Assembly: GCA_028695935.1 (NCBI GenBank)
Contig: JAQVHY010000013.1
Span: 1-38,747 of the forward strand
Length of the DNA: 38,747 bases
Reading direction: 5' to 3'
Origin: Desulfobacca sp.
GTDB lineage: Bacteria; Desulfobacterota; Desulfobaccia; Desulfobaccales; Desulfobaccaceae
Shown: piece by piece, positions 29,116 through 31,930 of the stretch
Numbering within the stretch: the first letter of the stretch is position 1
Layout of the letters: every line of letters begins with the position of its first letter
The notes under the pieces: model-generated
Databases searched by the model: none
Told to the model about the DNA's origin: nothing
Seen by the model: only the letters and a program-made list of their open reading frames with translations
Translations under genes and position numbers: made by a program

Positions 29116-29508
29116 TTAGCGGGTTCGGCTCCTTAGAAATTCTTCGGTCATGGATAGGAATCTCTCAGCCTTAGCTTGTAAATCTTGAACCGCGCTATCA
29201 TCGATGCCGGTCAAAATTTCGTAGTCACTGATTTGCCGTTTTTCAAAAGCCTCTCGCAGCCATTGATGCAGCTCTTTGGGCATCAGGCCAGCTTTAATAA
29301 AAAGCCGGGCAAATGCCGAAATAACCGCCCGGTGGCTGGAAAAGGCTTTACCTTCGCCCAGTAATAGGGCTTCCGCAGCATAAAACATAGCATAATAAAG
29401 CCTGGAGATAGCAGAATCATAATCATGCTGAATCCTCAAGATTTCCGCAGAATCAAGATAACGGCGTGATTTCCCCAGCAAGCCGTTGATTTCCTCAGCC
29501 AAGGTCAC
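29116..29508 (-). CDS. HEPN-domain protein (partner of MNT nucleotidyltransferase)
   Basis: A 130-residue all-helical HEPN protein starting at the GTG at 29508, which overlaps the upstream stop as GTGA. The longer frame from 29568 would overlap the MNT gene by 64 bases and lacks a rationale. The body shows SAISRLYYAMFYAAEALLLG, a second helix block SSHRAVISAFARLFIKAGL, and the closing EKRQISDYEI with the conserved Arg and D-Y. In two-gene MNT-HEPN modules the HEPN protein is the toxin-like (often RNase) partner and the MNT protein its inhibitor, in several cases by nucleotidylating it. A canonical R-x4-6-H is not obvious here, so RNase activity is uncertain. Confidence 0.85.
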   Translation of the reverse strand: MTLAEEINGLLGKSRRYLDSAEILRIQHDYDSAISRLYYAMFYAAEALLLGEGKAFSSHRAVISAFARLFIKAGLMPKELHQWLREAFEKRQISDYEILTGIDDSAVQDLQAKAERFLSMTEEFLRSRTR

Positions 29509-29840
29509 AGTAGGATTCCTTCCCGCCGGATATTCTTGAAGAGTGGACTTTGTCGGTTCTGCAGCCACGCTTCCGGGACCGGGAAAACCGCGATCAAAAG
29601 ATCATACCGCAAGCACAGATCGGAAACTAGCTCACTGAGCCGGTTGATCTCAGCGCAGGGGTTAACTTCACCTTTAAGGACAATCAGGAGGTCGACATCG
29701 GAATCAGCACGGTAATCGCCACGCGCATGAGAGCCATAAAGATATAGGCCACGGAAGCGAGGGCCGTAAATCTGCTCTAAAGATAGCCGCAGTTCCGCTA
29801 ATGCCTGCTGTACTGCTTGGGGAAGTTCACCTTTTAGCAC
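29505..29840 (-). CDS. Minimal nucleotidyltransferase (MNT), antitoxin-like
   Basis: A 111-residue protein with the polymerase-beta-type nucleotidyltransferase signature GSHARGDYRADSDVDLLIV: G-S, then D-x-D in the first metal-binding strand. Further conserved acidic residues follow ('DLCLRYDLLIAVFPV'). GTG start at 29840 with GGGAG 10 bases upstream. The gene ends in GTGA overlapping the HEPN start, which is the usual MNT-HEPN toxin-antitoxin layout. It probably modifies or binds its HEPN neighbour. The gene lies 37 bases after the KptA-like gene. Confidence 0.88.
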   Translation of the reverse strand: MLKGELPQAVQQALAELRLSLEQIYGPRFRGLYLYGSHARGDYRADSDVDLLIVLKGEVNPCAEINRLSELVSDLCLRYDLLIAVFPVPEAWLQNRQSPLFKNIRREGILL

Positions 29841-29877: not shown

Positions 29878-30633
29878 TTAACGCGGCTGGCGGCGGCGCT
29901 GACGCCGTTCGGCCCGCGCCTGCTCTTTCCACTCCGGTCCTTTTTTCCGCCGCTGCTCTTTGCTGCGGTTTACCGGCCTACCTTGAATATCCAGTAGCAC
30001 TGATCCGGGGATGGCAGTTGTATGCCTGAGTTCTTCAGGGGTAGAAGGTTTCGGGGCCGGTTTCTTCGCTTCTTCTTTCGGACAGGGTGGTACCTGGAGG
30101 AAATTCAGCGGGATCGCGGTGGTTAGAAATAGCTCTTCGCCATAGCGGTAAAATTGGCTACCTACCGCGGCCGCGGCCTGGGCCTGGACCGTGACCAGCA
30201 CTGCCTGGGGATCGCGGCGCTGACCGATGCGCTGGGCCATCTCGACATTTCGGGCCAGGATTAGTTGACCGTCGGGCGTTGGCCGCAGTCCCTGCTGGGC
30301 CACCACGGCATGGGACTTGCGGGTAATCGCCCGATAGAGCAGGGCGGGCGGCCACTCACTTTCCGCGGCGCGGCAGAGCGCGGCACCAGCAGGTAGGCTT
30401 CGGATAAGATTAGCGGAAATTTCAAAACGGCGCGGAGTAAGAAGGTAAACCGCGTCCTGCAGATGCGAACGCCGGACAAACCCCCAGCCCGGCTCCTCGC
30501 TCAAGGCCCGGAGCAGCTCTTTAATAGGCAGCCAGCCTTGGGCGTCCAACACCAGGCCGAACTCATCCGGCCGATGGCTGAGGATGTAAGTCAACATCCG
30601 GCCCAGCGATTCTAACCGTTGTGGCGGCCGCAT
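29878..30633 (-). CDS. Divergent Tpt1/KptA-like (RNA 2'-phosphotransferase fold) protein
   Basis: A 251-residue protein; the ATG at 30633 has GGGAG six bases upstream (a GTG at 30645 is in frame). Residues ~1-185 align by eye with KptA/Tpt1: L-T-Y-I-L-S-H-R-P-D-E-F-G-L-V-L-D-x-x-G-W, then RRFEIS, and LLYRAITRKSHAVVAQQGLRP. The fold normally uses NAD+ to remove a 2'-phosphate from RNA. Several signature residues differ: the RH dyad is S-H, the QGHS segment is gone, the H-G-T of the NAD site is R-A-I, and the R-x-H-V-H-L-S motif is lost. A Lys/Arg-rich tail (~185-251) is added. It may bind NAD or RNA without the classic reaction. It lies 10 bases below the nuclease-like gene. Confidence 0.75.
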   Translation of the reverse strand: MRPPQRLESLGRMLTYILSHRPDEFGLVLDAQGWLPIKELLRALSEEPGWGFVRRSHLQDAVYLLTPRRFEISANLIRSLPAGAALCRAAESEWPPALLYRAITRKSHAVVAQQGLRPTPDGQLILARNVEMAQRIGQRRDPQAVLVTVQAQAAAAVGSQFYRYGEELFLTTAIPLNFLQVPPCPKEEAKKPAPKPSTPEELRHTTAIPGSVLLDIQGRPVNRSKEQRRKKGPEWKEQARAERRQRRRQPR

Positions 30634-30655
30634 TATAGCTCCCACAATTTTATTT

Positions 30656-31651
30656 TTAAGCCTCAGAAACAGAAGACAATAAGCTAGAAAGAGCCTTTAT
30701 TTCGTCCTCTAGCAATGCCGTTATTTTCCCCACCCGATCATCTGAGAGGAGTATATGTTGCTCAATATTTGATAATAAATAAGAATCCATTGTGTCAATT
30801 TTTTTATGCAATTGTCGAAAACCCGCCGTCAATCTATCATCCCATTTTGTATCAACTCCAAAACAGAGAGGGACGGCGTTTTTCTCCCAGTAAGCCTGCC
30901 ATAGTCCAAACCAGAGGACATTTAGATTATTAATTTGCACATAAAACCCAAATTCACCATTATTCCACCATTCTTTATTAAAAGATCTATTTACCTGATA
31001 AGTTTTCTCAAGCTCAGATTGTACTTGCTTAATTAGGTTAAGTATTGCTTTAATCCCCCTAGCAGTTTCCGATTTATACATGACTTCGATCTCCTCATAT
31101 TTGAGTCTTAAGATGGGCTTTTCGAACCATTTGTGCAGAAGGCGGTAAAAATCGTTTATGTAAGTATTCATACTTGGCAAGCCGCATTTATCCAGCCGGC
31201 TTAACAAGTCTTCCCAGAAACAAATTGTTATAATGACATCCTGATTTTTATTCCTCCAGGCAGATATCCGGTCTCTTAATTCGGCAAGATGCCGGTAGCA
31301 CCTTGGCAAAAAGACTACTAATATACGTTCTCCTGCGAATTGTGAACCACTTAGGGAATCAAGGTAGATTTCAGGTTGAGCGTCTGTCAACTGGGTGTAG
31401 AGGGAAGTTTTTACTTCTACAAGAAGGCTTAGTTTTTCATTCAACACGGACAGGTCTGGTCTTACACCTCCAATGTTCTGCTGTAAAAACATGTCCTCCC
31501 AATCGACATGTTCTGCCCCGAATTTTCCGTTTGTGAGAAAGCCTATAAGTTCATTCCTGAATAGAGGATAGGCGGATAAAGCATATAAAAACCTGGTTAC
31601 CTCATTTTCACTTGAGATAATTTCTGCCAAGATGTTAGGTGAGTTACCCAT
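30656..31651 (-). CDS. Putative PD-(D/E)XK-type nuclease, otherwise unknown
   Basis: A 331-residue protein from the ATG at 31651, which has GGAG 8 bases upstream. TTG 31684 and ATG 31675 extend the frame but have no ribosome site. The likely catalytic core is R-P-D-L-S-V-L-N-E-K-L-S-L-L-V-E-V-K-T (D then E-x-K, residues ~65-85), preceded by S-E-N-E-V-T-R-F near the N-terminus as in PDDEXK_4-like proteins. The C-terminal ~180 residues are largely helical with no recognised domain. Coding DNA here is visibly more AT-rich than in the nuo genes. It is first in the accessory cluster. I do not recognise a named family; nuclease activity is inferred from one motif. Confidence 0.65.
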   Translation of the reverse strand: MGNSPNILAEIISSENEVTRFLYALSAYPLFRNELIGFLTNGKFGAEHVDWEDMFLQQNIGGVRPDLSVLNEKLSLLVEVKTSLYTQLTDAQPEIYLDSLSGSQFAGERILVVFLPRCYRHLAELRDRISAWRNKNQDVIITICFWEDLLSRLDKCGLPSMNTYINDFYRLLHKWFEKPILRLKYEEIEVMYKSETARGIKAILNLIKQVQSELEKTYQVNRSFNKEWWNNGEFGFYVQINNLNVLWFGLWQAYWEKNAVPLCFGVDTKWDDRLTAGFRQLHKKIDTMDSYLLSNIEQHILLSDDRVGKITALLEDEIKALSSLLSSVSEA

Positions 31652-31930
31652 AAATAAATCTCCATTTCTAGCCATAAAAATCAAGTTTTTTTGGTTTGTT
31701 AGTTGAGATATTGGGTTTAGCCTTATCGCTAAGCCTATGGTTTTATTAGATCACGGGTTGTGTAAAAACATATGGTACTGGTACTACAGTTTATTTTATA
31801 AATCAATCACCAACTAAAAATTGTATTATCTGAGTTGGGAGTAAACCTTGGTTTCACCTATATAGGTTGGATAAGCATAGCAGGTTCTTATAATTTGTTA
31901 AAACTGAATTATGTTTGAATAATGTAATAA
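31652..31930. promoter_or_regulatory. AT-rich gap before the nuclease-like gene, with palindromes
   Basis: About 250 bases without a supported gene. It contains an inverted repeat TTAGC/GCTAA (31717-31732, 6-base loop) near the nuclease-like gene and a perfect 12-bp palindrome ACCTATATAGGT (31856-31867). These could be an operator for the accessory cluster or the 3' end of the TonB receptor transcript. No clear promoter hexamers or terminator were identified. Confidence 0.35.

Follow-up and report, generated by a model that had tools for sequence, protein, structure and literature searches.

A tailed KptA/Tpt1-like protein of Desulfobacca with a degenerate active site belongs to a family in which catalytic residues were repeatedly lost

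Introduction

Why would a bacterial lineage keep an RNA 2'-phosphotransferase homologue whose catalytic residues are largely gone? The question is raised by a gene in a 38,747-nucleotide stretch of DNA from Desulfobacca sp. (contig JAQVHY010000013.1, assembly GCA_028695935.1), which we call the window and in which an initial annotation, made from the sequence alone, had described a KptA/Tpt1-like protein with most signature residues replaced and a basic C-terminal tail. The role of bacterial KptA/Tpt1 is itself a long-standing question. Bacterial Tpt1 homologues are prevalent, it is not obvious which reactions they perform where a fungal-type ligase is lacking, and loss of KptA in E. coli has no phenotype (PMC6333775). 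One 2'-phosphate of tRNA, that of 2'-phosphouridine-47, is made by ArkI-type tRNA kinases (PMC9095486). The phylum studied here has kept the gene and repeatedly discarded its catalytic residues, which bears directly on this question.

The active site is best described in CthTpt1, whose numbering we use for catalytic positions, with the numbering of the window protein given separately. In this enzyme, the tetrad Arg18, His19, Arg68 and Arg121 contacts the 2'- and 3'-phosphates, the splice-junction base is sandwiched between Lys11 and Arg68, His101 and Thr103 contact the adenosine ribose of NAD, and the NAD phosphates are caged by Arg121, Arg139 and Arg140 (PMC6333775). In Runella Tpt1, Ala at the equivalents of Arg18 or Arg68 cuts or abolishes activity, and combined Ala replacement of the His101 and Thr103 equivalents leaves the enzyme severely defective and is lethal when assayed in yeast (PMC6333775).

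Results

The window gene encodes a KptA/Tpt1 homologue

The gene lies on the minus strand at 29878..30633, the ATG-to-stop ORF originally delimited, and encodes a tailed, catalytically degenerate KptA/Tpt1-like protein of 251 residues. A Shine-Dalgarno-like GGGAG, recognised by eye at 30639..30643 (minus strand), stands about 6 bases upstream of the ATG (30633-30631), and an alternative GTG at 30645, which would give a form of 255 residues, overlaps this Shine-Dalgarno-like stretch. Pfam PTS_2-RNA (PF01885) matches residues 10-176 of the GTG-start form (E 2.4e-15, 57.5 bits against a cut-off of 26) and CthTpt1 (6ede) matches the window protein with E 3.7e-24, bearing out the proposed KptA/Tpt1-like scaffold; homology to KptA/Tpt1 is thus far above chance. 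By the NCBIfam equivalog models for RNA 2'-phosphotransferase (NF002012-NF002015) the protein remains below the cut-offs, the best model giving 80.3 bits against 239. This ORF is the single KptA match in its own genome.

The AF2 model (pLDDT 87.2, pTM 0.73) is predicted to adopt the two-lobe fold of Tpt1, in which, as in CthTpt1 (6ede/6e3a), a winged-helix RNA lobe is joined to an ART-fold NAD lobe, and Foldseek placed Tpt1 structures first (6ede, E 2.5e-16, probability 1.00, 33% identity). From the CthTpt1 lobe boundary (PMC6333775) and Foldseek, the La-like winged-helix RNA lobe corresponds to residues 1-84 (30382..30633, minus strand), and the CthTpt1 match, AF2 and Foldseek place the degenerate NAD+ lobe at residues 85-180 (30094..30381, minus strand). 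Foldseek also returned matches of RNA-lobe length to La-module (LARP1) structures (probability up to 0.99, E 0.07), and a resemblance of the CthTpt1 RNA lobe to human La has been reported (PMC6333775). The likeness to the LARP1 La module is structural and limited to the N-terminal lobe, with no sequence relation and a different second domain; the window protein is not a La protein.

Overlay on Tpt1 crystal structures, proposed earlier as a check, showed that the fold is kept but that global superposition is poor (TM 0.53, rmsd 11 A). We attribute the lobe orientation to a limit of the modelling, because a relative with an intact active site (L139), modelled identically, gives the same picture (TM 0.54, rmsd 11.2 A), and lobe rearrangement was consequently dropped as a mark of lost function. 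The ART-fold proteins PARP10 and PARP14 are among the weak Foldseek matches of the L139 model and absent from those listed for the window model, a difference weakly compatible with an eroded NAD lobe in the modelled window protein.

Most catalytic residues are replaced, and the loss is selective

Alignment showed that Ser19-His20 (30574..30579) replaces the catalytic Arg18-His19, PAGA at residues 81-84 (30382..30393) replaces YGHS, Arg101-Ala102-Ile103 (30325..30333) replaces the NAD-binding HGT, and DGQLILA at residues 121-127 (30253..30273) replaces RQYVHLS, the RxHVHLS segment, turning the tetrad Arg121 into Asp (all on the minus strand). The four changes first read by eye (RH to SH, an absent GHS segment, HGT to RAI, and the lost R-x-H-V-H-L-S) were all recovered. 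That most signature residues are replaced also holds, but the dyad His is retained, together with Arg69 (30427..30429, minus strand), the equivalent of tetrad Arg68 that is gone from about 80% of degenerate members, and Arg139-Arg140 (30214..30219, minus strand), the equivalents of the NAD pyrophosphate cage, which most family members keep. Arg12 sits at the position of CthTpt1 Lys11. The tetrad of the window protein accordingly reads Ser-His-Arg-Asp, against Arg-His-Arg-Arg in 11/11 tail-less KptAs compared; Arg and Ile stand where HxT (His101, Thr103) binds NAD, and AGA stands in place of a GHS loop that is invariant in tail-less members and in the tailed ones taken to be active. Since mutation of the Runella equivalents cuts activity and three of the four of those residues are missing here, it is, by analogy, well supported that the window protein no longer carries out the canonical removal of tRNA 2'-phosphate.

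Aligning the homologues, another of the suggested checks, revealed that the replacements are not specific to the window but class-wide and largely phylum-wide. We compared 11 tail-less KptAs, 15 tailed members with a complete site (tetrad plus H101/T103, hereafter intact) and 114 tailed members without one (broken, or degenerate). Position 18 is Arg in all tail-less and all intact tailed proteins, and Arg or Lys in 2% of the 114 degenerate members, in which the Arg68 and Arg121 positions are each Arg or Lys in 18% and GHS is gone. In the same 114 proteins, Lys or Arg occupies window positions 12 (99%), 38 (98%), 78 (94%), 135 (87%) and 139 (89%) and tail positions 236 (95%) and 240 (91%), with an identical Arg139 in 88% and Arg140 in 65%. 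The loss is therefore selective, as catalytic residues went while other basic residues stayed. A basic residue occupies positions 38 and 54 in 93-100% of the intact tailed proteins and 78-98% of the degenerate ones, compared with 27% and 0%, respectively, of the tail-less KptAs. One group of families (f71/f91/f38: L101, L103, L108, L113, L184, L190, L191, L112 and relatives) keeps Arg121 and has lost HGT and the rest of the tetrad. The dyad His is not conserved in Desulfobaccia either, several members of the class having Arg at that position, and no new constellation of His, Cys, Ser or Glu in the pocket is common to all degenerate clades. The degenerate members are KptA/Tpt1 proteins by homology but, on these alignments, appear to lie outside the functional definition of the family, and many proteins that score above the KptA cut-off of Pfam probably lack RNA 2'-phosphotransferase activity.

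The intact-site tailed members are presumably catalytically active. One of them (L043, from genome G138) has an open frame extending to 370 aa and ending in a hydrophobic stretch, which may reflect a fusion or a frame error.

The basic tail is older than the losses

The C-terminal tail covers residues 181-251 (29881..30093, minus strand) by profile, conservation and model, and carries a net charge of +11. It is Lys/Arg-rich, as first described, but 71 residues long instead of about 65, with PGS at 209-211 and a Trp-Lys/Arg-rich segment at 235-251 that is predicted to be helical; in the AF2 model a helix spans 234-248, with block pLDDT up to 89. Among 129 family tails, the median length is 69 aa and the median net charge +11, and WK or WR occurs in 108. 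With a profile built from degenerate tails, those of mixed families being left out, and 3000 shuffled tails as the null, 13 of the 15 intact-member tails score above the best shuffled tail (16.3 bits) and those of L042 and L034 fall below it. The profile matched only KptA-like ORFs among the loci examined, and a search of the PDB gave no convincing relatives of the tail. Judged by these profile scores, intact and degenerate members have homologous tails, beyond what composition alone would produce.

The initial annotation had treated the tail as an addition accompanying the altered active site. This is not borne out, since this same tail is also found in relatives whose active site is intact. 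It therefore predates the losses and becomes the strongest candidate for the function that preserved the protein. The window protein shares with the intact tailed KptAs of the phylum (for example L139, L157, L142 and L031) this tail and the extra basic positions, and all belong to one clade supported at 100/100; unlike the window protein, these relatives have a complete RHRR tetrad, HGT or HAT, and YGHS. With its PGS and WK/Arg-rich segment, its Lys38 and its place in that clade, the window protein belongs to this tailed KptA subfamily.

In Desulfobaccia the gene is present in 29/29 genomes, in single copy in each and with the tail, and Desulfobacca sp. 4484_104 carries a relative 88% identical to the window protein. 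Our survey covered one phylum, in which a family profile of 46 members finds matches in 135/395 Desulfobacterota genomes, nearly always single-copy and tailed (two genomes have a second, partial match), and the Pfam KptA model in 99/395. Most profile matches are full-length and include the tail; the count of 135 slightly overstates the tailed proteins, because a few matches are partial and one (L047, genome G219) is a tail-less canonical KptA. Plasmid matches, from many phyla, and phage matches extend no further than about residue 176-198 of the query proteins and so leave out the tail; the plasmid matches came from a tailed query with an intact active site.

Purifying selection on the protein, with at least three losses of the active site

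For the main tree we used 52 rows, blanked the active-site columns and rooted on the tail-less KptAs. All tailed proteins form one clade (support 100/100) apart from the tail-less KptAs, with intact tailed members branching near its base. The degenerate proteins fall in family f11 (L049, L050, L052), in family f39 (L058) and in a large clade that includes the window protein, with L118 of uncertain place. Constraining the degenerate rows to form one group carries a cost of 84.7 log units (AU p = 0.00018), which rejects a single dead clade, and at least three active-site changes are forced on the 52-row tree; a quick tree of 132 rows gives the same outline. We read these changes as losses because the outgroup is intact, and regaining six residues would be much less likely.

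Family f11 offers a graded series, from RHRR in L142 through LHRR with the loop shortened by 4 residues (L049) and QHRH (L050) to VHKK with YS (L052), and the tail is present at every step. The genomes are drafts, so substitutions seen in a single assembly could be errors, yet the changes recur in several. By the Nei-Gojobori method, with some dS values near saturation, dN/dS in 16 degenerate pairs ranges from 0.07 to 0.39 for the core and from 0.04 to 0.44 for the tail; the intact pair L157/L139 gives 0.13 in both, and the f11 pair L049/L050 gives 0.20 in the core. The degenerate copies are thus under purifying selection, and its action across lineages supports a retained role and not a pseudogene.

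Gene neighbours are lineage-specific

Across the loci sampled, no conserved gene neighbour or operon is shared between families, and neighbours are lineage-specific only; in Desulfobaccales, DUF218 and the nuo operon commonly follow the KptA-like gene. In the window, an MNT nucleotidyltransferase and HEPN pair resembling HepT/MntA toxin-antitoxins lies directly downstream (29116-29840, minus strand; HEPN E 6.7e-16, MNT PADLOC PDC-S09 E 9.8e-35), its MNT ORF staying below the NCBIfam MntA cut-off. Directly upstream, and ending 22 bases before the KptA-like ATG, is a 342-aa ORF (30656-31684, minus strand) with a PD-(D/E)XK-like motif, GVRPDLSV...LVEVKT, seen by eye, for which we found no Pfam family and no counterpart in the related loci examined. 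The HEPN/MNT pair is present in one same-genus locus (L127), absent from another (L128) and found in no other locus searched, and it is a recent insertion or loss. PADLOC has no match for the KptA-like protein itself.

An RtcB RNA ligase gene lies 53 bases upstream of one degenerate tailed KptA (L121, genome G104), on the same strand, the only such case among the sampled neighbours; RNB and PolyA_pol neighbours are likewise single cases. RtcB is present in 38/41 genomes, a co-occurrence that is uninformative because it is frequent with both intact and degenerate KptA.

Discussion

Inactivated copies kept under selection throughout the phylum probably have a job other than the textbook reaction. 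From its sequence, we regard the window protein as a probable pseudoenzyme of the KptA/Tpt1 family, for which non-catalytic binding of RNA or of a ribonucleoprotein is the likeliest job, a reading that we favour with modest confidence. Alignment and tree show that a phylum ancestor with an intact site gained the Lys/Arg-rich tail and the basic RNA-lobe positions Lys38 and Arg54, and that at least three losses of the active site followed, with purifying selection still acting on fold, basic patch and tail. Arg12, Lys38 and Arg78 of the La-like winged-helix lobe may contribute to RNA or ribonucleoprotein binding, as may the basic rim of Arg135, Arg139 and Arg140 and the arginine-rich tail helix, and the protein might act as a scaffold or chaperone-like factor on such a particle. 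The altered or binding-only role first suggested stands in that the canonical reaction is very probably lost and a role retained, but not as binding to 2'-phospho-RNA, which is unlikely because the lost residues are the ones that hold the 2'- and 3'-phosphates; with the residues recognising it mostly gone, the 2'-phosphate is an unlikely selector of the bound RNA. Counting against RNA binding, the gene neighbourhoods offer no conserved gene that would suggest an RNA process, the basic tail could bind an acidic protein, DNA or a membrane instead, and the retained Arg139 and Arg140 would also suit a role in nucleotide binding or altered chemistry.

Those two arginines are the starting point of two other explanations. 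If they still caged NAD+, the protein could, even lacking the Tpt1 tetrad, pass ADP-ribose on to some other target, an idea that gains from the frequency of Arg139 and Arg140 among degenerate members, from the Arg121 of the f71/f91/f38 group and from other Tpt1/KptA proteins that ADP-ribosylate 5'-phosphate ends (PMC11833690). We nevertheless think it unlikely, given that the HGT that binds the adenosine ribose is lost in nearly all members, that its double Ala mutant is severely defective (PMC6333775) and that the degenerate clades share no pocket constellation for new chemistry. A sensor whose degenerate pocket takes up a nucleotide or a molecule resembling ADP-ribose, with the tail relaying the signal to a partner, would likewise account for the basic cage and for a tail conserved independently of catalysis; it is about as unlikely, since no partner gene is conserved and the adenine- and ribose-contacting residues are mostly unconserved. 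That the protein is a working RNA 2'-phosphotransferase, its catalytic residues relocated or dispensable, is very unlikely: the window copy still has His20 and Arg69 and the modelled fold is intact, but Arg18, Arg121, H101 and T103 are missing jointly, and position 18 almost never holds a basic residue in degenerate members.

The remaining explanations are scarcely credible. A decaying, functionless gene would fit the lost residues and the wide sequence variation between families, but not the low dN/dS, the intact ORFs, the presence throughout the class or the several independent lineages. Equally remote is membership of a HEPN/MNT toxin-antitoxin or defence island, to which the genes on either side in the window might point; the pair occurs in 1/2 same-genus loci and the upstream ORF in none, while the KptA-like gene is found in the whole class, and this distribution contradicts such membership.

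With RNA or ribonucleoprotein binding thus preferred, a broader proposal can be made more tentatively, namely that the conserved role of KptA in this phylum may lie in an RNA or ribonucleoprotein function that depends on the tail, with enzyme activity as a dispensable partner. If true, this would explain why catalysis was repeatedly lost and the protein retained, and would indicate a second, non-catalytic function in the still-intact tailed KptAs. The pseudoenzyme ADPRHL1 similarly keeps its fold and has lost its catalytic residues (PMC10601310), but it is an animal ADP-ribosylhydrolase, whereas the window family derives from a bacterial RNA phosphotransferase and lost catalysis repeatedly. 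In the open-access PMC literature, to which our search was confined, we found no account of a tailed KptA or of a degenerate or repeatedly inactivated one.

The occurrence of intact and broken tailed copies within single families amounts to a natural experiment that could separate catalytic from non-catalytic roles. At the level of the class, R88, H108 and Y164 (window numbering) vary little or not at all among the 28 Desulfobaccia rows, though not across the family, and could mark a class-specific surface.
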